A stretch of 64,000 nt of DNA from Arenicola marina (Eukaryota > Annelida > Polychaeta > Arenicolidae): NCBI GenBank assembly GCA_964019135.1, contig OZ025263.1, positions 32,776,133 through 32,840,132 of the forward strand. The letters are read 5' to 3'. A model generated the notes under the pieces. That model saw nothing but the letters and a program-made list of their open reading frames with translations, did no database searches and was not told the DNA's origin. Positions within the stretch are counted from its first letter, which is position 1. Every line of letters starts with the position of its first letter. Of the stretch, positions 37,205 through 63,815 are shown in pieces. The translations under genes were made by a program, and so were the position numbers.

Positions 37205-37796
37205 GTAAGTATGGTCCTAATGGTTTTGGTTGCCTTATAGTTGATGTACGTACGATAATGCTGAACAATGTAAGCAATCCCTTAGAAATTAAACCATTCA
37301 CTGTCTATAACCTGTTATGTGTACATGTGTGCAATATGTCGATATGAATGTGTCGTTAATGATATTAACGTTTCCTTCTGCATCGTTACAGAGACAAGAA
37401 GGACCCTTTTGAAAATTCCACACAAGTATATTGCGTGCCGATTGTGGAATCGTTAATTGCATCGTGTTCTCTTTATGTATTGATGTGGGGTGATTCTCCG
37501 GTAATGTTGACACTTATTTTATCCTCTGTGATAGGGTCAAGAAGCGGAAATTGGTGTATTCCGCCCGTGCCGATTTCCTTTCCCCTGTTATTGTGTTTAT
37601 TGTGTTATGTGCTATGTGTTAGTGATCTTTGATGTTTACGTGAACATGTTAACGTTTGCTCCCATCCAGTATTGGCGCCAAGTCCCGTCGGAGTGAGTGT
37701 AACGCACTAAAACCGGTGATGCCCGGGATAATGCTCTATGTTGATTGTCCGTGGCTTTTTACATGACGATATTAACATTCAATTTTTCCTCCACAG

Positions 37797-37912
37797 AACG
37801 TACCATGGACCATGAGTTTGGGCATTCCAGTTCAACACGCACAATGTCGGCAGTAGCCACTTTGATCGTACTGTATTTCTTTCTCCTGATGTTTGATCTA
37901 CTGTTTCATTGA
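37797..37912 (+). CDS. candidate terminal exon C3, module 1
   Basis: The acceptor CCTCCACAG is followed in phase 1 by Lys then RTMDHEFGHSSS, a TRTM spacer, about 21 mostly hydrophobic residues and TGA. A small-residue triplet, short spacer and hydrophobic segment ending at the C terminus is the usual layout of a GPI-attachment signal; a C-terminal membrane helix is the alternative. C1 is 37392-37425 (no stop, donor GTATAT) and C2 is 37670-37692 (donor GTGAGT), so the module is intact. This copy has private changes (AACGTACC; T for I in the hydrophobic part). Direct B-to-C3 splicing is also in frame. Confidence 0.5.
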
Positions 37913-37945
37913 TGACGTTATTTTCTCCTTATCTCACCATTATAG

Positions 37946-38104
37946 TACCAAGTACCACCAGTGTGAGCAGTGCAAGCACCATCTCGGAGAGCACCACAAG
38001 TGTAACTACTCCAACAACACTCTCTGAATCTACGAGCACGGTGACCAGTCAGACCACAACAACACCGACAACTGTGACGGCCACAACCAGTGATTCGAGC
38101 ACAA
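37946..38104 (+). CDS. array-2 exon A, unit 2
   Basis: Acceptor CACCATTATAG, donor CAA|GTAAGTACATG. A exons differ from B by Leu at residue 26 and Ala at 46. E50D here. Confidence 0.85.
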
Positions 38105-38294
38105 GTAAGTACATGTCTATTGATATCCGTTAACTTTATTTATATGCAAACAACTATACACGCGTTCGACCATTTTTGATGAATTGTACCAGTCTTTGCT
38201 TGTACAATTTTCATCGCATTATACTCTTATTTTCATCACTTTCGGTGACTGGTTTCTTGATGGTCGTAACGAAATAATTTTTTCCCCGTGGTAG
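38105..38294 (+). other. representative A-to-B intron (190 bp)
   Basis: Starts GTAAGT and ends CCCCGTGGTAG. No extra acceptor/donor pair or open frame of note is seen inside. The other A-to-B introns match it closely, except 47740-47951. Confidence 0.8.
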
Positions 38295-38453
38295 TACCAA
38301 GTACCACCAGTGTGAGCAGTGCAAGTACCATCTCGGAGAGCACAACAAGTGTGACCACTCCAACAACGGTATCTGAATCCACGAGCACCGTGACCAGTCA
38401 GACCACAACAACACCAAAAACTGTGACGCCCACAACCAGTGAGTCGAGCACAA
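38295..38453 (+). CDS. array-2 exon B, unit 2
   Basis: Acceptor GTGGTAG. T42K. Confidence 0.85.
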
Positions 38454-39045
38454 GTAAGTATCGTCCTAATGGTTTGGGTTGCCTTATAGTTGATGTACGT
38501 ACGATAATGCTGAACAATGTAAGCAATCCCTTAGAAATTAAACCATTCACTGTCTATAACCTGTTATGTGTACATGTGTGCAATATGTTTATATGAATGT
38601 GTCGTTAATGATATCAACGTTTCCTTCTGCATCGTTCCAGAGACATAAAGGACCCATTTGAAAATTCCACTCAAGCATATTACGTGCCGATTGTGGAATC
38701 GTTAATTGCATCGTGTTCTCTTTATGTATTGATGTGGGGTGTTTCTCCGGTAATGTTGACACTTATTTTATCCTCTGTGATAGGGTCAAGAAGCGGAAAT
38801 TGGTGTATTCCGCCCGTGCCGATTTCCTTTGGCCTATTATTGTGTTTATTGTGTTATGTACTATGTGTTAGTGATCATCGATGTTTACGTGAACATGTTA
38901 ACGTTTGCTCCCATCCAGTATTGGCGCCAAGTCCCGTCGGAGTGAGTGTAACGCACTAAAACCGGTGATGCCCGGGATAATGCTCTATGTTGATTGTCCG
39001 TGGCTTTTTACATGACGATATTAACATTCAATTTTTCCTCCACAG

Positions 39046-39161
39046 AAAGTACCATGGACCATGAGTTTGGGCATTCCAGTTCAACACGCACAATGTCGGC
39101 AGTAGCCATTTTGATCGCACTGTATTTCTTTCCCCTGATGTTTGATCTACTGTTTCATTGA
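39046..39161 (+). CDS. candidate terminal exon C3, module 2
   Basis: Full-length hydrophobic tail. C1 (38641-38674) is damaged: it reads AGACATAA (stop in phase 1) and its donor is GCATAT. C2 is 38919-38941. Only direct B-to-C3 splicing would reach the tail. Confidence 0.45.
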
Positions 39162-39194
39162 TGACGTTAATTTCTCCTTATCTCACCATTATAG

Positions 39195-39353
39195 TACCAA
39201 GTACCACCAGTGTGAGCAGTGCAAGCACCATCTCGGAGAGCACCACAAGTGTAACTACTCCAACAACACTCTCTGAATCTACGAGCACGGTGACGAGTCA
39301 GACCACAACAACACCGACAACTGTGACGGCCACAACCAGTGAGTCGAGCACAA
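39195..39353 (+). CDS. A/B fusion exon, unit 3
   Basis: The acceptor side and all 53 codons are A type (Leu26, Ala46), but the donor runs into the B-type intron (GTAAGTATGGTCC) and straight on to a C module. One mucin exon and one A-to-B intron are missing, giving a 902-bp unit. Unequal exchange between A and B near their shared 3' ends is the simplest origin; the frame is kept. Confidence 0.85.
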
Positions 39354-39947
39354 GTAAGTATGGTCCTAATGGTTTGGGTTGCCTTATAGTTGATGTACGT
39401 ACGATAATGCTGAACAATGTAAGCAATCCCTTAGAAATTAAACCATTCACTGTCTATAACCTGTTATGTGTACAGGTGTGCAATATGTCGATATGAAGGT
39501 GTCGTTAATGATATTAACGTTTCCTTCTGCATCGTTACAGAGACATAAAGGACCCATTTGAAAATTCCACTCAAGCATATTACGTGCCGATTGTGGAATC
39601 GTTAATTGCATCGTGTTCTCTTTATGTATTGATGTGGGGTGTTTCTCCGGTAATGTTGACACTTATTTTATCCTCTGTGATAGGGTCAAGAAGCGGAAAT
39701 TGGTGTATTCCGCCCGTGCCGATTTCCTTTCCCCTATTATTGTGTATATTGTGTTATGTGCTATGTGTTAGTGATCTTCGACGTTTACGTGAACATGTTA
39801 ACGTTTGCTCCCATCCAGTATTGGCGCCACGTCCCGTCGGAGTGAGTGTAACGCACTAAAACCGGTGATGCCCGGGATAATGCTCTATGTTGATAATGTT
39901 CCGTGGCTTTTTACATGACGATATTAACATTCATTTTTCCTCCACAG

Positions 39948-40063
39948 AAAGTACCATGGACCATGAGTTTGGGCATTCCAGTTCAACACGCACAATGTCG
40001 GCAGTAGCCATTTTGATCGCACTGTATTTCTTTCCCCTGATGTTTGATATACTGTTTCATTGA
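39948..40063 (+). CDS. candidate terminal exon C3, module 3
   Basis: Full-length tail, following the A/B fusion exon. C1 (39541-39574) has the same stop and GC donor as module 2; C2 is 39819-39841. Confidence 0.45.
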
Positions 40064-40096
40064 TGACGCTAATTTCTCCTTATCTCACCATTATAG

Positions 40097-40255
40097 TACC
40101 AAGTACCACCAGTGTGAGCAGTGCAAGCACCATCTCGGAGAGCACCACAAGTGTAACTACTCCAACAACACTTTCTGAATCTACGAGCACGGTGACCAGT
40201 CAGACCACAACAACACCGACAACTGTGACGGCCACAACCAGTGAGTCGAGCACAA
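40097..40255 (+). CDS. array-2 exon A, unit 4
   Basis: A consensus protein; one silent change (ACTTTCTG). Confidence 0.85.
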
Positions 40256-40445
40256 GTAAGTACATGTCTATTGATATTCGTTGACTTTATTTATATGCAA
40301 ACAACTATAGGCGCGTTCAATCATTTCTGATGAATTCTACCAGTCTTTGCTTGTACATTTTTCATCGTATTATACTCTTATTTTCATTACTACCGGTGAC
40401 TGTTTTCTTGATGGTCGTAACGAAATAACTTTCTTCCCGTGGTAG

Positions 40446-40604
40446 TACCAAGTACCACCAGTGTGAGCAGTGCAAGTACCATCTCGGAGAGCACAACAAG
40501 TGTGACCACTCCAACAACGGTATCTGAATCCACGAGCACCGTGACCAGTCAGACCACAACAACACCAACAACTGTGACGCCCACAACCAGTGAGTCGAGC
40601 ACAA
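40446..40604 (+). CDS. array-2 exon B, unit 4
   Basis: B consensus protein. Confidence 0.85.
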
Positions 40605-41344
40605 GTAAGTATCGTTCTAATGGTTTTGGTTGCCTTATAGTTGATGTACGTACGATAATGCTGAACAATGTAAGCAATCCCTTAGAAATTAAACCATTCA
40701 CTGTCTATAACCTGTTATGTGTACATGTGTGCAATATGTCGATATGAATGTGTCGTTAATGATATTAACGTTTCCTTCTGCATCGTTACAGAGACAAGAA
40801 GGACCTATTTGAAAATTCCACCCAAGTATATTACGTGCCGATTGTGGAATCGTTAATTGCATCGTGTTCTCTTTATGTATTGATGTGGGGTGTTTCCCCG
40901 GTAATGTTGACACTTATTTTATCCTCTGTGATAGGATCAAGAAGCGGAAATTGGTGTATTCCGCCCGTGCCGATTTCCTTTCCCCTATTATTGTGTTTAT
41001 TACGTTATGTGCTATGTGTTAGTGATCTTTGATGTTTACGTGAACATGTTAACGTTTGCTCCCATCCAGTATTGGCGCCAAGTCCCGTCGGAGTGAGTGC
41101 AACGCACTAAAACCGATGATGCCCGGGATAATGCTATATGTTGATTGTCCGTGGCTTTTTACATGACGATATTAACATTCATTTTTCCTCCACAGAAAGT
41201 ACCATGGACCATGAGTTTGGGCATTCCAGTTCAACACGCACAATGTCGGCAGTAGCCATTTTGATCGCACTGTATTTCTTTCCCCTGATGTTTGATATAC
41301 TGTTTCATTGATGACGCTAATTTCTCCTTATCTCACCATTATAG
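40605..41344 (+). other. representative B-to-A interval (740 bp) with the C1-C2-C3 module
   Basis: If C exons are used it divides into a 187-bp intron, C1 40792-40825, a 244-bp intron, C2 41070-41092, a 103-bp intron, C3 41196-41311 and 33 bp before exon A. Each C acceptor has TTAAC upstream (ATATTAACG, ATGTTAACG, ATATTAACA) and a pyrimidine tract. C1 and C2 add 34 and 23 bp, together 57 bp, so the pair keeps the frame. If unused, the whole interval is an ordinary intron from GTAAGT to ATTATAG. No mobile element or RNA gene is seen. Confidence 0.6.
41196..41311 (+). CDS. candidate terminal exon C3, module 4
   Basis: Full-length tail. C1 40792-40825 and C2 41070-41092 are both intact. Confidence 0.5.
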
Positions 41345-41503
41345 TACCAAGTACCACCAGTGTGAGCAGTGCAAGCACCATCTCGGAGAGCACCACAAGT
41401 GTAACTACTCCAACAACACTCTCTGAATCTACGAGCACGGTGACCAGTCAGACCACAACAACACCGACAACTGTGACGGCCACAACCAGTGAGTCGAGCA
41501 CAA
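41345..41503 (+). CDS. array-2 exon A, unit 5
   Basis: A consensus protein. Confidence 0.85.
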
Positions 41504-41693
41504 GTAAGTACATGTCTATTGATATTCGTTGACTTTATTTATATGCAAACAACTATAGGCGCGTTCAATCATTTCTGATGAATTCTACCAGTCTTTGCTT
41601 GTACATTTTTCATCGTATTATACTCTTATTTTCATTACTACCGGTGACTGTTTTCTTGATGGTCGTAACGAAATAACTTTCCCCCCGTGGTAG

Positions 41694-41852
41694 TACCAAG
41701 TACCACCAGTGTGAGCAGTGCAAGTACCATCTCGGAGAGCACAACAAGTGTGACCACTCCAACAACGGTATCTGAATCCACGAGCACCGTGACCAGTCAG
41801 ACCACAACAACACCAACAACTGTGACGCCCACAACCAGTGAGTCGAGCACAA
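41694..41852 (+). CDS. array-2 exon B, unit 5
   Basis: B consensus protein; tract CCCCCCGTGGTAG. Confidence 0.85.
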
Positions 41853-42443
41853 GTAAGTATCGTTCTAATGGTTTTGGTTGGCTTATAGTTGATGTACGTA
41901 CGATAATGCTGAACAATGTAAGCAATCCCTTAGAAATTAAACCATTCACTGTCTATAACCTGTTATGTGTACATGTGTGCAATATGTCGATATGAATGTG
42001 TCGTTAATGATATTAACGTTTCCTTCTGCATCGTTACAGAGACAAGAAGGACCTATTTGAAAATTCCACCCAAGTATATTACGTGCCGATTGTGGAATCG
42101 TTAATTGCATCGTGTTCTCTTTATGTATTGATGTGGGGTGTTTCCCCGGTAATGTTGACACTTGTTTTATCCTCTGTGATAGGATCAAGAAGCGGAAATT
42201 GGTGTATTCCGCCCGTGCCGATTTCCTTTCCCCTATTATTGTGTTTATTACGTTATGTGCTATGTGTTAGTGATCTTTGATGTCTAAGTGAACATGTTAA
42301 CGTTTGCTCCCATCCAGTATTGGCGCGAAGTCACGTTGGAGCGCGTGTAACGCACTAAAACCGGTGATGCCCGGGATAATGCTCTATGTTGATTGTCCGT
42401 GGCTTTTTACATGACGATATTAACATTCATTTTTCCTCCACAG

Positions 42444-42559
42444 AAAGTATCATGGCCCATGAGTTTGGGCATTCCCGTTCAACACGCACAATGTCGGCAG
42501 TAGCCATTTTGATCGCACTGTATTTCTTTCCCCTGATGTTTGATCTACTGTTTTATTGA
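42444..42559 (+). CDS. candidate terminal exon C3, module 5
   Basis: Full-length tail with private changes (MAHEFGHSRS; last residue Tyr). C1 42040-42073 is intact; C2 42318-42340 has several changes and its donor is GCGCGT, so the C1-C2 route looks broken. Confidence 0.45.
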
Positions 42560-42592
42560 TGACGTTAATTTCTCCTTATCTCACCATTATAG

Positions 42593-42751
42593 TACCAAGT
42601 ACCACCAGTGTGAGCAGTGCAAGCACCATCTCGGAGAGCACCACCAGTGTAACTACTCCAACAACACTCTCTGAATCTACGAGCACGGTGACCACTCAGA
42701 CCACAACAACACCGACAACTGTGACGGCCACAACCAGTGAGTCGAGCACAA
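42593..42751 (+). CDS. array-2 exon A, unit 6
   Basis: S35T. Confidence 0.85.
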
Positions 42752-42941
42752 GTAAGTACATGTCTGTTGATATTCGTTGACTTTATTTATAGGCAAACAA
42801 CTATACGCGCGTTCAATCATTTCTGATGAATTCTACCAGTCTTTGCTTGTACATTTTTCATCGTATTATACTCTTATTTTCATTACTACCGGTGACTGTT
42901 TTCTTGATGGTCGTAACGAAATAACTTTCTCCCCGTGGTAG

Positions 42942-43100
42942 TACCAAGTACCACCAGTGTGAGCAGTGCAAGTACCATCTCGGAGAGCACAACAAGTGTG
43001 ACCACTCCAACAACGGTATCTGATTCCACGAGCACCGTGACCAGTCAGACCACAACAACACCAACAACTGTGACGCCCACAACCAGTGAGTCGAGCACAA
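42942..43100 (+). CDS. array-2 exon B, unit 6
   Basis: E28D. The downstream intron carries several private changes (TTGAGTACAG near 43130). Confidence 0.85.
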
Positions 43101-43690
43101 GTAAGTATCGTCCTAATTGTTTTGGTTGAGTACAGTTGATGTACGTACGATAATGCTGAACAATGGAAGCTACCCCTTAGAAATTAAACTAATCACTGTC
43201 TATAACCTGGTATGTGTACATGTGTGCAATATGTCGATATGAATGTGTCGTTAATGATATTAACGTTTCCTTCTGCATCGTTACAGAGACAAGAAGGACC
43301 TATTTGAAAATTCCACCCAAGTATATTACGTGCCGATTGTGGAATCGTTAATTGCATCGTGTTCTCTTGATGTATTGATGTGGGGTGTTTCCCCGGTAAT
43401 GTTGACACTTGTTTTATCCTCTGTGATAGGATCAAGAAGCGGAAATTGGTGTATTCCGCCCGTGCCGATTTCCTTTCCCCTATTATTGTGTTTATTACGT
43501 TATGTGCTATGTGTTAGTGATCTTTGATGTTTACGTGAACATGTTAACGTTTGCTCCCATCCAGTATTGGCGCCAAGTCCCGTCGGAGTGAGCGCAACGC
43601 ACTAAAACCGGTGATGCCCGGGATAATGCTATATGTTGATTGTCCGTGGCTTTTTACATGACGATATTAACATTCATTTTTCCTCCACAG

Positions 43691-43806
43691 AAAGTACCAT
43701 GGACCATGAGTTTGGGCATTCCAGTTCAACACGCACAATGTCGGCAGTAGCCATTTTGATCGCACTGTATTTCTTTCCCCTGATGTTTGATATACTGTTT
43801 CATTGA
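43691..43806 (+). CDS. candidate terminal exon C3, module 6
   Basis: Full-length tail. C1 43287-43320 intact; C2 43565-43587 with donor GTGAGC. Confidence 0.5.
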
Positions 43807-43839
43807 TGACGCTAATTTCTCCTTATCTCACCATTATAG

Positions 43840-43998
43840 TACCAAGTACCACCAGTGTGAGCAGTGCAAGCACCATCTCGGAGAGCACCACAAGTGTAAC
43901 TACTCCAACAACACTCTCTGAATCTACGAGCACGGTGACCAGTCAGACCACAACAACACCGACAACTGTGACGGCCACAACCAGTGAGTCGAGCACAA
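43840..43998 (+). CDS. array-2 exon A, unit 7
   Basis: A consensus protein. Confidence 0.85.
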
Positions 43999-44188
43999 GT
44001 AAGTACATGTCTATTGATATTCGTTGACTTTATTTATATGCAAACAACTATAGGCGCGTTCAATCATTTCTGATGAATTCTACCAGTCTTTGCTTGTACA
44101 TTTTTCATCGTATTATACTCTTATTTTCATTACTACCGGTGACTGTTTTCTTGATGGTCGTAACGAAATAACTTTCCCCCCGTGGTAG

Positions 44189-44347
44189 TACCAAGTACCA
44201 CCAGTGTGAGCAGTGCAAGTACCATCTCGGAGAGCACAACAAGTGTGACCACTCCAACAACGGTATCTGAATCCACGAGCACCGTGACCAGTCAGACCAC
44301 AACAACACCAACAACTGTGACGCCCACAACCAGTGAGTCGAGCACAA
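44189..44347 (+). CDS. array-2 exon B, unit 7
   Basis: B consensus protein. Confidence 0.85.
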
Positions 44348-44938
44348 GTAAGTATCGTTCTAATGGTTTTGGTTGCCTTATAGTTGATGTACGTACGATA
44401 ATGCTGAACAATGTAAGCACTCCCTTAGAAATTAAACCATTCACTGTCTATAACCTGTTATGTGTACATGTGTGCAATATGTCGATATGAATGTGTCGTT
44501 AATGATATTAACGTTTCCTTCTGCATCGTTACAGAGACAAGAAGGACCTATTTGAAAATTCCACCCAAGTATATTACGTGCCGATTGTGGAATCGTTAAT
44601 TGCATCGTGTTCTCTTTATGTATTGATGTGGGGTGTTTCCCCGGTAATGTTGACACTTGTTTTATCCTCTGTGATAGGATCAAGAAGCGGAAATTGGTGT
44701 ATTCCGCCCGTGCCGATTTCCTTTCCCCTATTATTGTGTTTATTACGTTATGTGCTATGTGTTAGTGATCTTTGATGTTTACGTGAACATGTTAACGTTT
44801 GCTCCCATCCAGTATTGGCGCCCAGTCCCGTCGGAGTGAGTGCAACGCACTAAAACCGGTGATGCCCGGGATAATGCTATATGTTGATTGTCCGTGGCTT
44901 TTTACATGACGATATTAACATTCATTTTTCCTCCACAG

Positions 44939-45054
44939 AAAGTACCATGGACCATGAGTTTGGGCATTCCAGTTCAACACGCACAATGTCGGCAGTAGCC
45001 ATTTTGATCGCCCTGTATTTCTTTCCCCTGATGTTTGATATACTGTTTCATTGA
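44939..45054 (+). CDS. candidate terminal exon C3, module 7
   Basis: Full-length tail. C1 44535-44568 and C2 44813-44835 (one Lys-to-Gln change) have intact splice sites. Confidence 0.5.
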
Positions 45055-45087
45055 TGACGCTAATTTCTCCTTATCTCACCATTATAG

Positions 45088-45246
45088 TACCAAGTACCAC
45101 CAGTGTGAGCAGTGCAAGCACCATCTCGGAGAGCACCACAAGTGTAACTACTCCAACAACACTCTCTGAATCTACGAGCACGGTGACCAGTCAGACCACA
45201 ACAACACCGACAACTGTGACGGCCACAACCAGTGAGTCGAGCACAA
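45088..45246 (+). CDS. array-2 exon A, unit 8
   Basis: A consensus protein. Confidence 0.85.
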
Positions 45247-45436
45247 GTAAGTACATGTCTATTGATATTCGTTGACTTTATTTATATGCAAACAACTATA
45301 GGCGCGTTCAATCATTTCTGATGAATTCTACCAGTCTTTGCTTGTACATTTTTCATCGTATTGTACTCTTATTTTCATTACTACCGGTGACTGTTTTCTT
45401 GATGGTCGTAACGAAATAACTTTCCCCCCGTGGTAG

Positions 45437-45595
45437 TACCAAGTACCACCAGTGTGAGCAGTGCAAGTACCATCTCGGAGAGCACAACAAGTGTGACCAC
45501 TCCAACAACGGTATCTGAATCCACGAGCACCGTGACCAGTCAGACCACAACAACACCAACAACTGTGACGCCCACAACCAGTGAGTCGAGCACAA
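45437..45595 (+). CDS. array-2 exon B, unit 8
   Basis: B consensus protein. Confidence 0.85.
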
Positions 45596-46186
45596 GTAAG
45601 TATCGTTCTAATGGTTTTGGTTGCCTTATAGTTGATGTACGTACGATAATGCTGAACAATGTAAGCAATCCCTTAGAAATTAAACCATTCACTGTCTATA
45701 ACCTGTTATGTGTACATGTGTGCAATATGTCGATATGAATGTGTCGTTAATGATATTAACGTTTCCTTCTGCATCGTTACAGAGACAAGAAGGACCTATT
45801 TGAAAATTCCACCCAAGTATATTACGTGCCGATTGTGGAATCGTTAATTGCATCGTGCTCTCTTTATGTATTGATGTGGGGTGTTTCCCCGGTAATGTTG
45901 ACACTTGTTTTATCCTCTGTGATAGGATCAAGAAGCGGAAATTGGTGTATTCCGCCCGTGCCGATTTCCTTTCCCCTAGTATTGTGTTTATTGCGTTATG
46001 TGCTATGTGTTAGTGATCTTTGATGTTTACGTGAACATGTTAACGTTTGCTCCCATCCAGTATTGGCGCCAAGTCCCGTCGGAGTGAGTGCAACGCACTA
46101 AAACCGGTGATGCCCGGGATAATGCTATACGTTGATTGTCCGTGGCTTTTTACATAACGATATAAACATTCATTTTTCCTCCACAG

Positions 46187-46302
46187 AAAGTACCATGGAC
46201 CATGAGTTTGGGCATTCCAGTTCAACACGCACAATGTCGGCAGTAGCCATTTTGATCGCACTGTATTTCTTTCCCCTGATGTTTGATATACTGTTTCATT
46301 GA
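46187..46302 (+). CDS. candidate terminal exon C3, module 8
   Basis: Full-length tail. C1 45783-45816 and C2 46061-46083 intact; the C3 branch motif is altered to ATATAAACA. Confidence 0.48.
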
Positions 46303-46335
46303 TGACGCTAATTTCTCCTTATCTCACCATTATAG

Positions 46336-46494
46336 TACCAAGTACCACCAGTGTGAGCAGTGCAAGCACCATCTCGGAGAGCACCACAAGTGTAACTACT
46401 CCAACAACACTCTCTGAATCTACGAGCACGGTGACCAGTCAGACCACAACAACACCGACAACTGTGACGGCCACAACCAGTGAGTCGAGCACAA
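46336..46494 (+). CDS. array-2 exon A, unit 9
   Basis: A consensus protein. Confidence 0.85.
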
Positions 46495-46684
46495 GTAAGT
46501 ACATGTCTATTGATATTCGTTGATTTTATTTATATGCAAACAACTATACGCGCGTTCAATCATTTCTGATGAATTCTACCAGTCTTTGCTTGTACATTTT
46601 TCATCGTATTATACAGTTATTTTCATTACTACCGGTGACTGTTTTCTTGATGGTCGTAACGAAATAACTTTCTCCCCGTGGTAG

Positions 46685-46843
46685 TACCAAGTACCACCAG
46701 TGTGAGCAGTGCAAGTACCATCTCGGAGAGCACAACAAGTGTGACCACTCCAACAACGGTATCTGAATCCACGAGCACCGTGACCAGTCAGACCACAACA
46801 ACACCAACAACTGTGACGCCCACAACCAGTGAGTCGAGCACAA
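46685..46843 (+). CDS. array-2 exon B, unit 9
   Basis: B consensus protein. Confidence 0.85.
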
Positions 46844-47434
46844 GTAAGTATCGTTCTAATGGTTTTGGTTGCCTTATAGTTGATGTACGTACGATAATGC
46901 TGAACAATGTAAGCAATCCCTTAGAAATTAAACCATTCACTGTCTATAACCGGGTATGTGTGCATGTGTGCAATATGTCGATATGAATGTGTCGTTAATG
47001 ATATTAACGTTTCCTTCTGCATCGTTACAGAGACAAGAAGGACCTATTTGAAAATTCCACTCAAGTATATTACGTGCCGATTGTGGAATCGTTAATTGCA
47101 TCGTGTTCTCTTTATGCATTGATGTGGGGTGTTTCCCCGGTAATGTTGACACTTGTTTTATCCTCTGTGATAGGATCAAGAAGCGGAAATTGGTGTATTC
47201 CGCCCGTGCCGATTTCCTTTCCCCTATTATTGTGTTTATTGCGTTATGTGCTATGTGTTAGTGATCTTCGATGTTTACGTGAACATGTTAACGTTTGCTC
47301 CCATCCAGTATTGGCGCCAAGTCCCGTCGGAGTGAGTGCAACGCACTAAAACCGGTGATGCCCGGGATAATGCTATATGTTGATTGTCCGTGGCCATTTA
47401 CATGACGATATTAACATTCATTTTTCCTTCACAG

Positions 47435-47550
47435 AAAGTATCATGGACCATGAGTTTGGGCATTCCAGTTCAACACGCACAATGTCGGCAGTAGCCATTT
47501 TGATCGCCCTGTATTTCTTTCCCCTGATGTTTGATATACTGTTTCATTGA
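47435..47550 (+). CDS. candidate terminal exon C3, module 9
   Basis: Full-length tail, acceptor CCTTCACAG. C1 47031-47064 and C2 47309-47331 intact. Confidence 0.5.
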
Positions 47551-47583
47551 TGACGCTAATTTCTCCTTATCTCACCATTATAG

Positions 47584-47739
47584 TACCAAGTACCACCAGT
47601 GTGAGCAGTGCAAGCACCATCTCGGAGAGCACCACAAGTGTAACTATTCCAACAACACTCTCTGAATCTACGAGCACGGTGACCAGTCAGACCACAACAC
47701 CGACAACTGTGACGGCCACAACCAGTGAGTCGAGCACAA
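47584..47739 (+). CDS. array-2 exon A, unit 10 (156 bp, one codon lost)
   Basis: One ACA codon of the Thr run at residues 37-40 is deleted, the only length change among the 141 mucin exons, and it is in frame. Also T22I. Confidence 0.85.
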
Positions 47740-47882
47740 GTAAGTACATGTCTATTGATATTCGTTGACTTTATTTATATGCAAACAACTATACGCGCGT
47801 TCAATCATTTCTGATGAATTCCACCAGTCTTTGCTTGTACATTTTTCATCGTATTATACTCTTATTTTCATTACTACCGGTG

Positions 47883-47926: not shown

Positions 47927-47951
47927 CGAAATAACTTTATCCCCGTGGTAG

Positions 47952-52555: not shown

Positions 52556-52588
52556 TGACGCTAATTTCTCCTTATCTCACCATTATAG

Positions 52589-53096: not shown

Positions 53097-53686
53097 GTAA
53101 GTATCGTCCTAATGGTTTTGGTTGCCTTATAGTTGATGTACGTACGATAATGCTGAACAATGTAAGCAATCCCTTAGAAATTAAACCATTCACTGTCTAT
53201 AACCTGTTATGTGTACATGTGTGCAATATGTCGATATGAATGTGTCGTTAATGATATTAACGTTTCCTTCTGCATCGTTACAGAGACAAGAAGGACCCAT
53301 TTGAAAATTCCACCCAAGTATATTACGTGCCGATTGTGGAATCGTTAATTGCATCGTGTTCTCTTTACGTATTGATGTGGGGTGTTTCCCCGGTAATGTT
53401 GACACTTGTTTTATCCTCTGTGATAGGATCAAGAAGCGGAAATTGGTGTATTCCGCCCGTGCCGATTTCCTTTCCCCTAATATTGTGTTTATTGCGTTAT
53501 GGGCTATGTGTTAGTGATCTTCGATGTTTACGTGAACATGTTAACGTTTGCTCCCATCTAGTATTGGCGCCAAGGCCCGTCGGAGTGAGTGTAACGCAAT
53601 AAAACCGGTGATGCCCGGGATAATGCTATATGTTGATTTCCGTGGCTTTTCACATGACGATATTAACATTCATTTTTCCTCCACAG

Positions 53687-53802
53687 AATGTATCATGGAC
53701 CATGAGTTTGGGCATTCCAGTTCAACACGCACAATGTCGGCAGTAGCCATTTTGATCGCACTGTATTTCTTTCCCCTGATGTTTGATCTACTGTTTCATT
53801 GA
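53687..53802 (+). CDS. candidate terminal exon C3, module 14
   Basis: Copy of module 11. C1 53284-53317 and C2 53562-53584 intact. Confidence 0.5.
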
Positions 53803-53835
53803 TGACGTTAATTTCTCCTTATCTCACCATTATAG

Positions 53836-53994
53836 TACCAAGTACCACCAGTGTGAGCAGTGCAAGCACCATCTCGGAGAGCACCACAAGTGTAACTACT
53901 CCAACAACACTCTCTGAATCTACGAGCACGGTGACCAGTCAGACCACAACAACACCGACAACTGTGACGGCCACAACCAGTGAGTCGAGCACAA
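53836..53994 (+). CDS. array-2 exon A, unit 15
   Basis: A consensus protein; copy of unit 12. Confidence 0.85.
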
Positions 53995-54184
53995 GTAAGT
54001 ACATGTCTATTGATATTCGTTGACTTTATTTATATGCAAACAACTATACGCGCGTTCAATCATTTCTGATGAATTCTACCAGTCTATGCTTGTACATTTT
54101 TCATCGTATTATACTCTTATTTTCATTACTACCGGTGACTGTTTTCTTGATGGTGGTAACGAAATAACTTTCTCCCCGTGGTAG

Positions 54185-54343
54185 TACCAAGTACCACCAG
54201 TGTGAGCAGTGCAAGTACCATCTCGGAGAGCACAACAAGTGTGACCACTCCAACAACGGTATCTGAATCCACGAGCACCGTGACCAGTCAGACCACAACA
54301 ACACCAACAACTGTGACGCCCACAACCAGTGAGTCGAGCACAA
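54185..54343 (+). CDS. array-2 exon B, unit 15
   Basis: B consensus protein; copy of unit 12. Confidence 0.85.
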
Positions 54344-54934
54344 GTAAGTATCGTCCTAATGATTTTGGTTGCCTTATAGTTGATGTACGTACGATAATGC
54401 TGAACAATGTAAGCAATCCCTTAGAAATTAAACCATTCATTGTCTATAACCTGTTATGTGTACATGTGTGCAATATGTCGATATGAATGTGTCGTTAATG
54501 ATATTAACGTTTCCTTCTGCATCGTTACAGAGACAAGAAGGACCCATTTGAAAATTCCACCCAAGTATATTACGTGCCGATTGTGGAATCGTTAATTGCA
54601 TCGTGTTCTCTTTATGTATTGTTGTGACGTTTTTCCCCGGTCATGTTGACACTTGTCTTATCCTCTGTGATAGGATCAAGAAGCGCAAATTGGTGTATTC
54701 CGCCCGTGCCGATTTCCTTTCCCCTATTATTGTGTTTATTGTGTTATGTGCTATGTGTTAGTGATCTTTGATGTTTACGTGAACATATTAACGTTTCCTC
54801 CTATGCAGTATTGGCGCCAAGTCCCGTCGGAGTGAGTGTAACGCACTAAAACCGGTGATGCCCGGGATAATGCTATATTTTGATTGTCCGTGGCTTTTTA
54901 CATGACGATATTAACATTCGTTTTTCCTCCACAG

Positions 54935-55050
54935 AAAGTACCATGGACCATGAGTTTGGCCATTCCAGTTCAACACGCACAATATCAGCAGTAGCCATTT
55001 TGATCGCACTGTATTTCTTTCCCCTGATGTTTGATCTACTGTTTCATTGA
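54935..55050 (+). CDS. candidate terminal exon C3, module 15
   Basis: Copy of module 12. C1 54531-54564 and C2 54809-54831 intact. Confidence 0.5.
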
Positions 55051-55083
55051 TGACGTTAATTTCTCCTTATCTCACCATTATAG

Positions 55084-55242
55084 TACCAAGTACCACCAGT
55101 GTGAGCAGTGCAAGCACCATCTCGGAGAGCACCACAAGTGTAACTACTCCAACAACACTCTCTGAATCTACGAGCACGGTGACAAGTCAGACCACAACAA
55201 CACCGACAACTGTGACGGCCACAACCAGTGAGTCGAGCACAA
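55084..55242 (+). CDS. array-2 exon A, unit 16
   Basis: A consensus protein with the GTGACAAGTCAG marker; copy of unit 13. Confidence 0.85.
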
Positions 55243-55432
55243 GTAAGTACATGTCTATTGATATTCGTTGACTTTATTTATATGCAAACAACTATACGCG
55301 CGTTCAATCATTTCTGATGAATTCTATCAGTCTTTGCTTGTACATTTTTCATCGTATTATACTCTTATTTTCATTACTACCGGTGACTGTTTTCTTGATG
55401 GTCGTAACGAAATAACTTTCTCCCCGTGGTAG

Positions 55433-55591
55433 TACCAAGTACCACCAGTGTGAGCAGTGCAAGTACCATCTCGGAGAGCACAACAAGTGTGACCACTCCA
55501 ACGACGGTATCTGAATCCACGAGCACCGTGACCAGTCAGACCACAACAACACCAACAACTGTGACGCCCACAACCAGTGAGTCGAGCGCAA
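55433..55591 (+). CDS. array-2 exon B, unit 16
   Basis: T53A; copy of unit 13. Confidence 0.85.
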
Positions 55592-56181
55592 GTAAGTATC
55601 ATCCGAATGGTTTTGGTTGCCTTATAGTTGATGTACGTACGATAATGCTGAACAATGTAAGCTACCCCTTAGAAATTAAACTAATCACTGTCTATCACCT
55701 GGTATGTGTACATGTGTGCAATATGTCGATATGAATGTGTCGTTAATGATATTAACGTTTCCTTCTGCATCGTTACAGAGACAAGAAGGACCTAGTTGAA
55801 AATTCCACCCAAGCATATTACGTGCCGATTGTGGAATCGTTAAATGCATCGTATTCTCTTTATGTATTGATGTGGGGTGTTTCCCCGGTAATGTTGACAC
55901 TTATTTTATCCTCTGTGATAAGGTCAAAAAGCGGAAATTGGTGTATTCCGCCCGTGCCGATTTCCTTTCCCCTATTATTGTGTTCATTGTGTTATGTGCT
56001 ATGTGTTAGTGATCTTTGATGTTTACGTGAACATGTTAACGTTTGCTCCCATCTAGTATTGGCGCCAAGTCCCGTCGGAGTGAGTGTAACGCAATAAAAC
56101 CGGTTATGCCCGGGATAATGCTATATGTTGATTTCCGTGGCTTTTCACATGACCATATTAACATTCATTTTTCCTCCACAG

Positions 56182-56297
56182 AAAGTATCATGGACCATGA
56201 GTTTGGGCATTCCAGTTCAACACGCACAATGTCGGCAGTAGCCATTTTGATCGCACTGTATTTCTTTCCCCTGATGTTTGATCTACTGTTTCATTGA
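56182..56297 (+). CDS. candidate terminal exon C3, module 16
   Basis: Copy of module 13: full-length tail, C1 (55779-55812) with TAG and GC donor, C2 56057-56079. Confidence 0.45.
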
Positions 56298-56330
56298 TGA
56301 CGCTAATTTCTCCTTATCTCACCATTATAG

Positions 56331-56489
56331 TACCAAGTACCACCAGTGTGAGCAGTGCAAGCACCATCTCGGAGAGCACCACAAGTGTAACTACTCCAAC
56401 AACACTCTCTGAATCTACGAGCACGGTGACCAGTCAGACCACAACAACACCGACAACTGTGACGGCCACAACCAGTGAGTCGAGCACAA
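56331..56489 (+). CDS. array-2 exon A, unit 17
   Basis: A consensus protein. Confidence 0.85.
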
Positions 56490-56679
56490 GTAAGTACATG
56501 TCTATTGATATTCGTTGACTTTATTTATATGCAAACAACTATACGCGCGTTCAATCATTTCTGATGAATTCTACCAGTCTTTGCTTGTACGTTTTTCATC
56601 GTATTATACTCTTATTTTCATTACTACCGGTGACTGTTTTCTTGATGGTCGTAACGAAATAACTTTCTCCCCGTGGTAG

Positions 56680-56838
56680 TACCAAGTACCACCAGTGTGA
56701 GCAGTGCAAGTACCATCTCGGAGAGCACAACAAGTGTGACCACTCCAACAACGGTATCTGAATCCACGAGCACCGTGACCAGTCAGACCACAACAACACC
56801 AACAACTGTGACGCCCACAACCAGTGAGTCGAGCACAA
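56680..56838 (+). CDS. array-2 exon B, unit 17
   Basis: B consensus protein. Confidence 0.85.
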
Positions 56839-57428
56839 GTAAGTATCGTCCTAATGGTTTTGGTTGCCTTATAGTTGATGTACGTACGATAATGCTGAAC
56901 AATGTAAGCAATCCCTTAGAAATTAAACCATTCACTGTCTATAACCTGTTATGTGTACATGTGTGCAATATGTCGATATGAATGTGTCGTTAATGATATT
57001 AACGTTTCCTTCTGCATCGTTACAGAGACAAGAAGGACCCATTTGAAAATTCCACCCAAGTATATTACGTGCCGATTGTGGAATCGTTAATTGCATCGTG
57101 TTCTCTTTACGTATTGATGTGGGGTGTTTCCCCGGTAATGTTGACACTTGTTTTATCCTCTGTGATAGGATCAAGAAGCGGAAATTGGTGTATTCCGCCC
57201 GTGCCGATTTCCTTTCCCCTAATATTGTGTTTATTGCGTTATGGGCTATGTGTTAGTGATCTTCGATGTTTACGTGAACATGTTAACGTTTGCTCCCATC
57301 CAGTATTGGCGCCAAGTCCCGTCGGAGTGAGTGTAACGCAATAAAACCGGTGATGCCCGGGATAATGCTATATGTTGATTTCCGTGGCTTTTCACATGAC
57401 GATATTAACATTCATTTTTCCTCCACAG

Positions 57429-57544
57429 AATGTATCATGGACCATGAGTTTGGGCATTCCAGCTCAACACGCACAATGTCGGCAGTAGCCATTTTGATCG
57501 CACTGTATTTCTTTCCCCTGATGTTTGATCTACTGTTTCATTGA
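57429..57544 (+). CDS. candidate terminal exon C3, module 17
   Basis: Copy of module 11 or 14 with the CCATCCAG form of the C2 acceptor. C1 57026-57059, C2 57304-57326, all intact. Confidence 0.5.
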
Positions 57545-57577
57545 TGACGTTAATTTCTCCTTATCTCACCATTATAG

Positions 57578-57736
57578 TACCAAGTACCACCAGTGTGAGC
57601 AGTGCAAGCACCATCTCGGAGAGCACCACAAGTGTAACTACTCCAACAACACTCTCTGAATCTACGAGCACGGTGACCAGTCAGACCACAACAACACCGA
57701 CAACTGTGACGGCCACAACCAGTGAGTCGAGCACAA
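57578..57736 (+). CDS. array-2 exon A, unit 18
   Basis: A consensus protein. Confidence 0.85.
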
Positions 57737-57926
57737 GTAAGTACATGTCTATTGATATTCGTTGACTTTATTTATATGCAAACAACTATACGCGCGTTCA
57801 ATCATTTCTGATGAATTCTACCAGTCTATGCTTGTACATTTTTCATCGTATTATACTCTTATTTTCATTACTACCGGTGACTGTTTTCTTGATGGTGGTA
57901 ACGAAATAACTTTCTCCCCGTGGTAG

Positions 57927-58085
57927 TACCAAGTACCACCAGTGTGAGCAGTGCAAGTACCATCTCGGAGAGCACAACAAGTGTGACCACTCCAACAACG
58001 GTATCTGAATCCACGAGCACCGTGACCAGTCAGACCACAACAACACCAACAACTGTGACGCCCACAACCAGTGAGTCGAGCACAA
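57927..58085 (+). CDS. array-2 exon B, unit 18
   Basis: B consensus protein. Confidence 0.85.
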
Positions 58086-58676
58086 GTAAGTATCGTCCTA
58101 ATGATTTTGGTTGCCTTATAGTTGATGTACGTACGATAATGCTGAACAATGTAAGCAATCCCTTAGAAATTAAACCATTCATTGTCTATAACCTGTTATG
58201 TGTACATGTGTGCAATATGTCGATATGAATGTGTCGTTAATGATATTAACGTTTCCTTCTGCATCGTTACAGAGACAAGAAGGACCCATTTGAAAATTCC
58301 ACCCAAGCATATTACGTGCCGATTGTGGAATCGTTAAATGCATCGTATTCTCTTTATGTATTGATGTGGGGTGTTTCCCCGGTAATGTTGACACTTATTT
58401 TATCCTCTGTGATAAGGTCAAAAAGCGGAAATTGGTGTATTCCGCCCGTGCCGATTTCCTTTCCCCTATTATTGTGTTCATTGTGTTATGTGCTATGTGT
58501 TAGTGATCTTTGATGTTTACGTGAACGTGTTAACGTTTGCTCCCATCCAGTATTGGCGCCAAGTCCCGTCGGAGCGAGTGTAACGCACTAAAACCGGTGA
58601 TGCCCGGGATAATGCTATATGTTGATTGTCCGTGGCATTTTACATGACGATATTAACATTCATTTTTCCTCCACAG

Positions 58677-58756
58677 AAAGTATCATGGACCATGTGTTTG
58701 GGCATTCCAGTTCAACACGCACAATGTCGGCAGTAGCCATTTTGATCGCACTGTGA
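58677..58756 (+). pseudogene. truncated terminal exon C3, module 18
   Basis: GCACTGTGATTC puts TGA in frame after SAVAILIAL, removing the last 12 residues of the usual tail. The C1 (58273-58306) donor is GCATAT and the C2 (58551-58573) donor is GCGAGT, so all three parts are weakened together. Confidence 0.6.
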
Positions 58757-58825
58757 TTCTTTCCCCTGATGTTTGATCTACTGTTTCATTGATGACGTTA
58801 ATTTCTCCTTATCTCACCATTATAG

Positions 58826-58984
58826 TACCAAGTACCACCAGTGTGAGCAGTGCAAGCACCATCTCGGAGAGCACCACAAGTGTAACTACTCCAACAACAC
58901 TCTCTGAATCTACGAGCACGGTGACCAGTCAGACCACAACAACACCGACAACTGTGACGGCCACAACCAGTGAGTCGAGCACAA
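58826..58984 (+). CDS. array-2 exon A, unit 19
   Basis: A consensus protein. Confidence 0.85.
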
Positions 58985-59174
58985 GTAAGTACATGTCTAT
59001 TGATATTCGTTGACTTTATTTATATGCAAACAACTATACGCGCGTTCAATCATTTCTGATGAATTCTACCAGTCTATGCTTGTACATTTTTCATCGTATT
59101 ATACTCTTTTTTTCATTACTACCGGTGACTGTTTTCTTGATGGTGGTAACGAAATAACTTTCTCCCCGTGGTAG

Positions 59175-59333
59175 TACCAAGTACCACCAGTGTGAGCAGT
59201 GCAAGTACCATCTCGGAGAGCACAACAAGTGTGACCACTCCAACAACGGTATCTGAATCCACGAGCACCGTGACCAGTCAGACCACAACAACACCAACAA
59301 CTGTGACGCCCACAACCAGTGAGTCGAGCACAA
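59175..59333 (+). CDS. array-2 exon B, unit 19
   Basis: B consensus protein. Confidence 0.85.
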
Positions 59334-59924
59334 GTAAGTATCGTCCTAATGATTTTGGTGGCCTTATAGTTGATGTACGTACGATAATGCTGAACAATGT
59401 AAGCAATCCCTTAGGAATTAAACCATTCATTGTCTATAACCTGTTATGTGTACATGTGTGCAATATGTCGATATGAATGTGTCGTTAATGATATTAACGT
59501 TTCCTTCTGCATCGTTACAGAGACAAGAAGGACCCATTTGAAAATTCCACCCAAGTATATTACGTGCCGATTGTGGAATCGTTAATTGCATCGTGTTCTC
59601 TTTACGTATTGTTGTGACGTTTTTCCCCGGTCATGTTGACACTTGTCTTATCCTCTGTGATAGGATCAAGAAGCGGAAATTGGTGTATTCCGCCCGTGCC
59701 GATTTTCTTTCCCCTATTATTGTGTTTATTGTGTTATGTGCTATGTGTTAGTGATCTTCGATGTTTACGTGAACATGTTAACGTTTGCTCCTATGCAGTA
59801 TTGGCGCCAAGTCCCGTCGGAGTGAGTGTAACGCACTAAAACCGGTGATGCCCGGGATAATGCTATATTTTGATTGTCCGTGGCTTTTTACATGACGATA
59901 TTAACATTCGTTTTTCCTCCACAG

Positions 59925-60040
59925 AAAGTACCATGGACCATGAGTTTGGCCATTCCAGTTCAACACGCCCAATGTCAGCAGTAGCCATTTTGATCGCACT
60001 GTATTTCTTTCCCCTGATGTTTGATCTACTGTTTCATTGA
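59925..60040 (+). CDS. candidate terminal exon C3, module 19
   Basis: Full-length tail (Pro replaces Thr in the spacer). C1 59521-59554 and C2 59799-59821 intact. Confidence 0.5.
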
Positions 60041-60073
60041 TGACGTTAATTTCTCCTTATCTCACCATTATAG

Positions 60074-60232
60074 TACCAAGTACCACCAGTGTGAGCAGTG
60101 CAAGCACCATCTCGGAGAGCACCACAAGTGTAACTACTCCAACAACACTCTCTGAATCTACGAGCACGGTGACCAGTCAGACCACAACAACACCGACAAC
60201 TGTGACGGCCACAACCAGTGAGTCGAGCACAA
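60074..60232 (+). CDS. array-2 exon A, unit 20
   Basis: A consensus protein; lacks the GTGACAAGTCAG marker of its unit-13 and unit-16 counterparts, a sign of local conversion. Confidence 0.85.
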
Positions 60233-60422
60233 GTAAGTACATGTCTATTGATATTCGTTGACTTTATTTATATGCAAACAACTATACGCGCGTTCAATCA
60301 TTTCTGATGAATTCTATCAGTCTTTGCTTGTACATTTTTCATCGTATTATACTCTTATTTTCATTACTACCGGTGACTGTTTTCTTGATGGTCGTAACGA
60401 AATAACTTTCTCCCCGTGGTAG

Positions 60423-60581
60423 TACCAAGTACCACCAGTGTGAGCAGTGCAAGTACCATCTCGGAGAGCACAACAAGTGTGACCACTCCAACGACGGTAT
60501 CTGAATCCACGAGCACCGTGACCAGTCAGACCACAACAACACCAACAACTGTGACGCCCACAACCAGTGAGTCGAGCGCAA
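60423..60581 (+). CDS. array-2 exon B, unit 20
   Basis: T53A. Confidence 0.85.
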
Positions 60582-61171
60582 GTAAGTATCATCCGAATGG
60601 TTTTGGTTGCCTTATAGTTGATGTACGTACGATAATGCTGAACAATGTAAGCTACCCCTTAGAAATTAAACTAATCACTGTCTATCACCTGGTATGTGTA
60701 CATGTGTGCAATATGTCGATATGAATGTGTCGTTAATGATATTAACGTTTCCTTCTGCATCGTTACAGAGACAAGAAGGACCTAGTTGAAAATTCCACCC
60801 AAGCATATTACGTGCCGATTGTGGAATCGTTAAATGCATCGTATTCTCTTTATGTATTGATGTGGGGTGTTTCCCCGGTAATGTTGACACTTATTTTATC
60901 CTCTGTGATAAGGTCAAAAAGCGGAAATTGGTGTATTCCGCCCGTGCCGATTTCCTTTCCCCTATTATTGTGTTCATTGTGTTATGTGCTATGTGTTAGT
61001 GATCTTTGATGTTTACGTGAACATGTTAACGTTTGCTCCCATCTAGTATTGGCGCCAAGTCCCGTCGGAGTGAGTGTAACGCAATAAAACCGGTTATGCC
61101 CGGGATAATGCTATATGTTGATTTCCGTGGCTTTTCACATGACCATATTAACATTCATTTTTCCTCCACAG

Positions 61172-61287
61172 AAAGTATCATGGACCATGAGTTTGGGCAT
61201 TCCAGTTCAACACGCACAATGTCGGCAGTAGCCATTTTGATCGCACTGTATTTCTTTCCCCTGATGTTTGATCTACTGTTTCATTGA
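61172..61287 (+). CDS. candidate terminal exon C3, module 20
   Basis: Copy of module 16: full-length tail, C1 (60769-60802) with TAG and GC donor, C2 61047-61069. Confidence 0.45.
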
Positions 61288-61320
61288 TGACGCTAATTTC
61301 TCCTTATCTCACCATTATAG

Positions 61321-61479
61321 TACCAAGTACCACCAGTGTGAGCAGTGCAAGCACCATCTCGGAGAGCACCACAAGTGTAACTACTCCAACAACACTCTCT
61401 GAATCTACGAGCACGGTGACCAGTCAGACCACAACAACACCGACAACTGTGACGGCCACAACCAGTGAGTCGAGCACAA
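61321..61479 (+). CDS. array-2 exon A, unit 21
   Basis: A consensus protein. Confidence 0.85.
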
Positions 61480-61669
61480 GTAAGTACATGTCTATTGATA
61501 TTCGTTGACTTTATTCATATGCAAACAACTATACGCGCGTTCAATCATTTCTGATGAATTCTACCAGTCTTTGCTTGTACGTTTTTCATCGTATTATACT
61601 CTTATTTTCATTACTACCGGTGACTGTTTTCTTGATGGTCGTAACGAAATAACTTTCTCCCCGTGGTAG

Positions 61670-61828
61670 TACCAAGTACCACCAGTGTGAGCAGTGCAAG
61701 TACCATCTCGGAGAGCACAACAAGTGTGACCACTCCAACAACGGTATCTGAATCCACGAGCACCGTGACCAGTCAGACCACAACAACACCAACAACTGTG
61801 ACGCCCACAACCAGTGAGTCGAGCACAA
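61670..61828 (+). CDS. array-2 exon B, unit 21
   Basis: B consensus protein. Confidence 0.85.
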
Positions 61829-62418
61829 GTAAGTATCGTCCTAATGGTTTTGGTTGCCTTATAGTTGATGTACGTACGATAATGCTGAACAATGTAAGCA
61901 ATCCCTTAGAAATTAAACCATTCACTGTCTATAACCTGTTATGTGTACATGTGTGCAATATGTCGATATGAATGTGTCGTTAATGATATTAACGTTTCCT
62001 TCTGCATCGTTACAGAGACAAGAAGGACCCATTTGAAAATTCCACCCAAGTATATTACGTGCCGATTGTGGAATCGTTAATTGCATCGTGTTCTCTTTAC
62101 GTATTGATGTGGGGTGTTTCCCCGGTAATGTTGACACTTGTTTTATCCTCTGTGATAGGATCAAGAAGCGGAAATTGGTGTATTCCGCCCGTGCCGATTT
62201 CCTTTCCCCTAATATTGTGTTTATTGCGTTATGGGCTATGTGTTAGTGATCTTCGATGTTTACGTGAACATGTTAACGTTTGCTCCCATCCAGTATTGGC
62301 GCCAAGTCCCGTCGGAGTGAGTGTAACGCAATAAAACCGGTGATGCCCGGGATAATGCTATATGTTGATTTCCGTGGCTTTTCACATGACGATATTAACA
62401 TTCATTTTTCCTCCACAG

Positions 62419-62534
62419 AATGTATCATGGACCATGAGTTTGGGCATTCCAGCTCAACACGCACAATGTCGGCAGTAGCCATTTTGATCGCACTGTATTT
62501 CTTTCCCCTGATGTTTGATCTACTGTTTCATTGA
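62419..62534 (+). CDS. candidate terminal exon C3, module 21
   Basis: Copy of module 17. C1 62016-62049 and C2 62294-62316 intact. Confidence 0.5.
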
Positions 62535-62567
62535 TGACGTTAATTTCTCCTTATCTCACCATTATAG

Positions 62568-62726
62568 TACCAAGTACCACCAGTGTGAGCAGTGCAAGCA
62601 CCATCTCGGAGAGCACCACAAGTGTAACTACTCCAACAACACTCTCTGAATCTACGAGCACGGTGACCAGTCAGACCACAACAACACCGACAACTGTGAC
62701 GGCCACAACCAGTGAGTCGAGCACAA
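62568..62726 (+). CDS. array-2 exon A, unit 22
   Basis: A consensus protein. Confidence 0.85.
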
Positions 62727-62916
62727 GTAAGTACATGTCTATTGATATTCGTTGACTTTATTTATATGCAAGCAACTATACGCGCGTTCAATCATTTCTG
62801 ATGAATTCTACCAGTCTATGCTTGTACATTTTTCATCGTATTATACTCTTATTTTCATTACTACCGGTGACTGTTTTCTTGATGGTGGTAACGAAATAAC
62901 TTTCTCCCCGTGGTAG

Positions 62917-63075
62917 TACCAAGTACCACCAGTGTGAGCAGTGCAAGTACCATCTCGGAGAGCACAACAAGTGTGACCACTCCAACAACGGTATCTGAAT
63001 CCACGAGCACCGTGACCAGTCAGACCACAACAACACCAACAACTGTGACGCCCACAACCAGTGAGTCGAGCACAA
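62917..63075 (+). CDS. array-2 exon B, unit 22
   Basis: B consensus protein. Confidence 0.85.
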
Positions 63076-63666
63076 GTAAGTATCGTCCTAATGATTTTGG
63101 TTGCCTTATAGTTGATGTACGTACGATAATGCTGAACAATGTAAGCAATCCCTTAGAAATTAAACCATTCATTGTCTATAACCTGTTATGTGTACATGTG
63201 TGCAATATGTCGATATGAATGTGTCGTTAATGATATTAACGTTTCCTTCTGCATCGTTACAGAGACAAGAAGGACCCATTTGAAAATTCCACCCAAGCAT
63301 ATTACGTGCCGATTGTGGAATCGTTAAATGCATCGTATTCTCTTTATGTATTGATGTGGAGTGTTTCCCCGGTAATGTTGACACTTATTTTATCCTCTGT
63401 GATAAGGTCAAAAAGCGGAAATTGGTGTATTCCGCCCGTGCCGATTTCCTTTCCCCTATTATTGTGTTCATTGTGTTATGTGCTATGTGTTAGTGATCTT
63501 TGATGTTTACGTGAACGTGTTAACGTTTGCTCCCATCCAGTATTGGCGCCAAGTCCCGTCGGAGCGAGTGTAACGCACTAAAACCGGTGATGCCCGGGAT
63601 AATGCTATATGTTGATTGTCCGTGGCATTTTACATGACGATATTAACATTCATTTTTCCTCCACAG

Positions 63667-63746
63667 AAAGTATCATGGACCATGTGTTTGGGCATTCCAG
63701 TTCAACACGCACAATGTCGGCAGTAGCCATTTTGATCGCACTGTGA
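63667..63746 (+). pseudogene. truncated terminal exon C3, module 22
   Basis: Copy of module 18 at 4990 bp: same TGA inside the hydrophobic tail, C1 (63263-63296) with a GC donor, C2 (63541-63563) with a GC donor. Confidence 0.6.
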
Positions 63747-63815
63747 TTCTTTCCCCTGATGTTTGATCTACTGTTTCATTGATGACGTTAATTTCTCCTT
63801 ATCTCACCATTATAG

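Follow-up and report, generated by a model that had tools for sequence, protein, structure and literature searches.

A 64,000-nucleotide (nt) stretch of the genome of the polychaete Arenicola marina (assembly GCA_964019135.1; contig OZ025263.1, hereafter C18, positions 32,776,133-32,840,132; this whole stretch is called the window) carries part of a giant predicted mucin gene, in which a short frame ending in a stop codon, C3, recurs from intron to intron. Judged from the DNA alone, C3 is probably an unselected pseudo-exon in the intron between exon B and the next exon A of a transmembrane mucin gene, skipped in nearly all transcripts. By unequal crossing-over, the intron would have been copied along with its neighboring exons A and B, and the 38-codon frame with its stop would thereby have come to recur ~116 times. 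Exon B would be spliced to the next exon A, bypassing C3, and the gene would proceed to its SEA, EGF-like, and transmembrane end. Both the skipping of C3 in RNA and unequal crossing-over as the source of the array are what we infer. The genome measures 867 Mb in 762 contigs.

The C3 frame and its repeat unit

The following features of the window, all on the forward strand, should be noted.
1..36847, + strand, 376-bp tandem units, 98 copies, each with one 159-nt serine/threonine (Ser/Thr)-rich exon, phase 1 at both ends
36848..64000, + strand, array of ~1,248-bp units, with exons A and B and a 740-nt B-to-A intron containing C1, C2, and C3
37797..37912, + strand, first C3 copy in the window
40446..40604, + strand, exon B of the example unit, 159 nt, phase 1 at both ends
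40792..40825, + strand, C1, candidate micro-exon of 34 nt, phase 1 to 2, with a conserved acceptor flank
41070..41092, + strand, C2, candidate micro-exon of 23 nt, phase 2 to 1
41196..41311, + strand, C3 copy of the example unit, a 38-codon frame with a hydrophobic end and a stop
41345..41503, + strand, exon A of the next unit, starting 33 nt past the C3 stop
58677..58792, + strand, C3 copy stopping after 26 codons
63667..63782, + strand, last C3 copy in the window, stopping after 26 codons

In the ~1,248-bp unit, exons A and B (159 nt each) are separated by a 190-nt intron, and a 740-nt intron with the C module, C1-C2-C3, lies between exon B and the next exon A. Twenty-two C modules are found in the window, and the unit copies are for the most part 96-100% alike. 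In full, the array is some five times as long as the part visible in the window, running ~119 kb beyond it and ending at about C18:32,958,934. The C3 counts over 89 copies given below cover the window and further stretches of the array read downstream; in C18:32,910,133-32,943,132 (33 kb), two 500-base samples were read, and the C3 pattern search covers all of that stretch. Exons of the A/B type have an AG acceptor, a GT donor, and an open frame in 182 of 183 cases examined, and the remaining one is shifted, which was read as an in-frame 3-nt deletion.

A sequence-only reading of this DNA had described 22 copies of C3 in the window, each with an AG acceptor, phase 1, a hydrophobic tail, and a stop, 20 of them full-length, and this description is confirmed. 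The AG acceptor is present in 22/22 window copies and in 87/89 copies examined. The phase-1 frame runs for 38 codons in 20/22 and 83/89 copies, respectively, and stops after 26 codons in the other 2/22 and 6/89. Genome-wide, the C3 core gives 116 matches in the forward direction and none in reverse, and a reversed-pattern control gives none. All of the 100 matches listed are within the array, and a further 13 were read in it. Random frames across units, which had been named as a sign that C3 is functionless, are not what is found. The frames are not random, and since the copies are so alike, recent common descent explains this.

The 26-codon version accounts for 7 of the 100 matches listed, unevenly spaced at C18:32,834,856-32,852,361 and 32,921,489. 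Its irregular recurrence is a mark of spread between units, and its spread to six of the 89 copies was counted in favor of an unselected C3. Within the window, a C module follows every exon B, as described, whereas five units further downstream have an additional A- or B-type exon without a C module of its own. The irregular units (three of the form ABB, an AAB, one mixed, and a fused unit) differ from the others by one 349-bp step more or less, fitting unequal crossing-over. An exact 22-bp duplication was also observed at window positions 47883-47926, in a unit spaced 1,264 bp from the next.

The phases of C1 (1 to 2) and C2 (2 to 1) mean that both B-C3 and B-C1-C2-C3 splicing would stay in frame. 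However, while the GT donor is present in 81/81 aligned units for both exons A and B, it is kept in 68/81 for C1 and in 65/81 for C2. The C1-C2-C3 path is thus broken in many units.

Two other accounts of the array were rejected. A satellite or RNA-gene array gives no Rfam match at gathering scores, and the exons keep their frame and splice sites. As for 116 small genes in tandem, stop-to-stop frames in the consensus unit reach at most 108 codons on the forward strand and 103 on the reverse, and no start exon was seen, though no systematic search for promoters or start exons was made.

Allele spectra across the aligned units

We compared alleles across 81 aligned units, with 7 of the 88 C1-to-C1 intervals excluded (lengths of 900, 1598 three times, 1600 twice, and 1226). 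The number of distinct alleles per base is 0.14 in exon A, 0.13 in exon B, and 0.38 in C3, compared with 0.37-0.49 in the four long introns and 0.21 in the 33-nt gap between C3 and exon A. C3 has 44 alleles (31 nonsynonymous, 12 synonymous, and 1 stop), and the intron spectrum predicts 46.7 (32.5, 12.5, and 0.8, respectively). The C3 alleles are distributed as 14, 16, and 14 over codon positions 1, 2, and 3, and shifting the frame by one or two bases gives counts similar to those of the true frame. Contrarily, exon A has 22 alleles (12 nonsynonymous and 10 synonymous) and exon B has 20 (13 and 7), where ~65 (~46 and ~18) are expected in each. Exons A and B are strongly constrained, with about a third of the expected alleles, whereas the allele counts, set against those of the introns in the 81 units, give no sign of protein-level constraint on the C3 tail. 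The intron rate proposed for C3 as a test of its function is therefore largely what the allele counts, the nonsynonymous/synonymous split, and the codon positions display, with the exception of frequency-weighted diversity.

This exception is the first of several observations that weigh against an unselected C3. The frequency-weighted diversity of C3 (0.0259) is under that of all 400 comparison windows (minimum 0.0323), which overlap one another and take in C1 and C2; by allele count, C3 is at the 23rd percentile of the same windows. Diversity drops toward exon A, and the low value in C3 may reflect constraint on the branch point or acceptor of exon A, or linkage to exon A. The C3 acceptor is kept in 79/81 units, not significantly different from the acceptors of A and B (P 0.11). 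Synonymous alleles in exons A and B are also fewer than expected, and the low allele count there is thus partly not due to selection on the protein. The copies in the array are not independent, and the counts thus reflect recent change only. In dinucleotide shuffles of the 740-nt intron, a post-acceptor phase-1 tail as hydrophobic as that of C3 appears in 27 of 1,000. Finally, the least variable 48-nt window of the B-to-A intron lies immediately before the C1 acceptor (scan P 0.019, post hoc). With other window sizes, the scan gives P 0.044 (25 nt), 0.018 (73 nt), and 0.31 (116 nt).
40744-40791, quiet 48-nt stretch directly upstream of the C1 acceptor (consensus unit 1202-1248 plus 1)

The quiet flank of C1 bears on an alternative in which C1 and/or C3 are poison exons or splicing decoys that tune the output of the gene or keep its near-identical exons ordered. 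Such a decoy requires an acceptor and no protein frame, and the 40 nt before the acceptor contain 6 alleles in C1, compared with 9 in A, 14 in B, 18 in C2, and 21 in C3. However, the quietness was spotted post hoc, the donors of C1 and C2 decay, and the acceptor flank of C3 is the least conserved of the five. We regard this alternative as improbable.

The hydrophobic end, being rarer than chance in the shuffles, fits another alternative, that C1-C2-C3 is a now dead remnant of what was once a gene end (of this or another gene), caught in the intron before being amplified. The three acceptors with similar TTAAC-type branch-point candidates (found by eye) and the fitting phases are also consistent with it. 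On the other hand, the C3-core matches that were placed are confined to the array, and the C module has no match to the real 3' part of the gene, described below, in the stretches searched. Outside the array, comparison of the C3 and long C1-frame peptides with the stretches covered gave no convincing match (best E 0.45), and C3 as a copy of the true end was rejected on that ground. Likewise, the C module is not a copy of another of the introns compared: the A-B intron, the intron of the 376-bp unit, and the related 349-bp units within C18:28.60-28.66 Mb give no match. A relic differs from the unselected pseudo-exon in origin only, and the odds of the two overlap; as a specific origin it appears rather unlikely.

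A second phase-1 hydrophobic frame was observed in the same intron as C3, in the C1 region (window 40794-41032). This frame has 79 codons in 57/81 units, and its allele counts are intron-like.

Transcript ends and the 3' part of the gene

The sequence-only reading had suggested that C3 might end a ladder of anchored proteins of graded length, serve as a poison exon, or be a duplicate of a gene end and skipped every time. The first suggestion corresponds to C3 being a rarely used alternative last exon, giving shorter membrane-anchored or shed mucins. The acceptor kept in 87/89 copies with matching phase and the diversity of C3 below the comparison windows are in favor of this. The tail also satisfies a simple rule resembling that for a glycosylphosphatidylinositol (GPI) anchor, a combination of hydrophobicity and omega-like residues that 8 of 1,000 shuffles match as well; the omega rule and the hydrophobicity cut are ad hoc heuristics, not a GPI predictor. 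Against this, C3 lacks protein-level constraint, its 26-codon version has multiplied, and exon A starts only 33 nt past the stop. None of the 89 copies has an AATAAA or ATTAAA within 60 nt of its stop, and the consensus unit contains none of the other polyadenylation signal variants. The first ATTAAA is located 622-624 nt after the stop, beyond exons A and B, in 75/89 copies, and 8/89 have an AATAAA within 1,100 nt of it. A last exon of this kind is therefore quite unlikely.

The number of copies sets a further limit. With 116 terminators in series, by arithmetic, use of each at 1% leaves 31% of transcripts full-length and use at 5% leaves 0.3%, and a full-length product is obtained only if each is used at ~1% or less. 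The exons beyond the array are intact, and the use of C3 must therefore be rare. This limit caps the use of each copy at ~1% or less, whether in a ladder of anchored proteins or as a poison exon. It leaves room for the 116 C modules to be weak terminators, each ending less than ~1% of transcripts and together giving a graded mucin ladder without selection on the tail sequence, which we consider very unlikely.

Poison exons and intronic pseudo-exons share with C3 a frame that bears a stop and follows a usable acceptor within an intron. Known poison exons usually occur singly and show strong conservation, whereas C3 is repeated 116 times and is not conserved as protein. A donor of the form GTRAGT lies inside C3 or within 34 nt beyond it in 2/89 copies, and by this donor form C3 lacks the acceptor, donor, and stop layout of a cassette poison exon. 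Among the three suggestions, skipping is the best supported, but a duplicated gene end is not, since the real end of the gene is of another kind.

After the last C3 (match at C18:32,958,817-32,958,934), exons A and B are followed by a threonine (Thr)-rich exon of 2,769 nt and 27 more exons. From the last exon B, 29 exons, with edges set by eye, join in phase to give 2,249 codons with a single stop at the end. All 29 have AG acceptors, and all but the last have GT donors. The predicted C-terminal part comprises a cysteine (Cys)-rich stretch, a SEA domain, an EGF-like motif, a hydrophobic helix, and a charged cytoplasmic tail. The SEA match (PF01390) has an E of 1e-05 with 26.1 bits or 2.3e-05 with 24.9 bits, both just under the cut-off of 26.4, and the EGF match (PF00008; E 0.0055, 17.4 bits) is below its cut-off of 21.5. 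The candidate transmembrane helix has 20 residues with a mean hydropathy of 2.46. The predicted plan, a Ser/Thr-rich domain followed by SEA, EGF-like, and transmembrane parts, is that of a transmembrane mucin.

The Cys-rich part (604 residues) matches nothing in Pfam at E 1, and no homologue was found at E 0.001. Its exons (C18:32,969,297-32,986,986) carry a recurring RG motif (NKRG, DKRG) and, by eye, are perhaps Ly6/uPAR-like.

Similar mucins and the extent of the gene

A near likeness is chicken Muc13, also a transmembrane mucin with SEA and EGF domains, a Ser/Thr/Pro-rich domain, and one repeat per exon, for which the authors suggest length control via alternative splicing (PMC1552070). 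The present gene is unlike Muc13, as far as described there, in its ~1,500 repeat exons, two unit types, Cys-rich region before SEA, and stop-bearing intronic frames. The SmPoMuc genes of Schistosoma mansoni are also mucin genes in which tandem exon and intron repeats (~1 kb) evolve in concert; the repeated exon is 27 bp with at most 20 genomic copies, and the premature stops reported there are due to aberrant splicing in the 3' region (PMC2576457). Within what was seen of these two papers, a stop-bearing frame in each repeat is described neither for Muc13 (PMC1552070) nor for SmPoMuc (PMC2576457). By analogy, the three would work alike in that mucin length is set by the number of repeat exons. 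The case of C3 suggests that copying in tandem can turn an intronic open frame into what resembles a designed module, and that the allele spectrum compared with introns and the arithmetic of serial terminators are tests separating the two.

The 376-bp units in the window are part of an array of ~485 kb that reaches upstream, starting near C18:32,328,000 after a Thr-rich repeat stretch of more than 5 kb. Their exons have AG, GT, and an open frame in 286/286 cases examined in the window and upstream stretches. Genome-wide, the exon pattern of the 376-bp unit gives 1,420 forward and 26 reverse matches; each of the 100 matches listed lies either at C18:28.60-28.65 Mb or at 32.328 Mb and beyond. 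Judged by length, ~150 matches belong to the former stretch, leaving at most ~1,270 at this gene. This estimate agrees with the length of the array, and all seven samples taken between 32.40 and 32.69 Mb are array. The exons of the A/B type number ~236 (183 seen, the remainder by spacing). By these estimates, a single mucin gene may extend over C18:32,328,000-32,991,792 with ~1,500 tandem exons and, if it is one transcript, ~80,000 predicted residues. To our knowledge, a mucin of ~80,000 residues would exceed any animal protein, and the gene would then be an extreme case for splicing fidelity as well as for animal protein size.

A second array of 376-bp units is located at C18:28.60-28.66 Mb. 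Its exons have AG and an open frame in 60/60 examined and GT in 59/60. After this array come 349-bp units that have A/B-like exon sequences but do not match the C module. The copies at the very start of the 376-bp array of the present gene look broken by eye.

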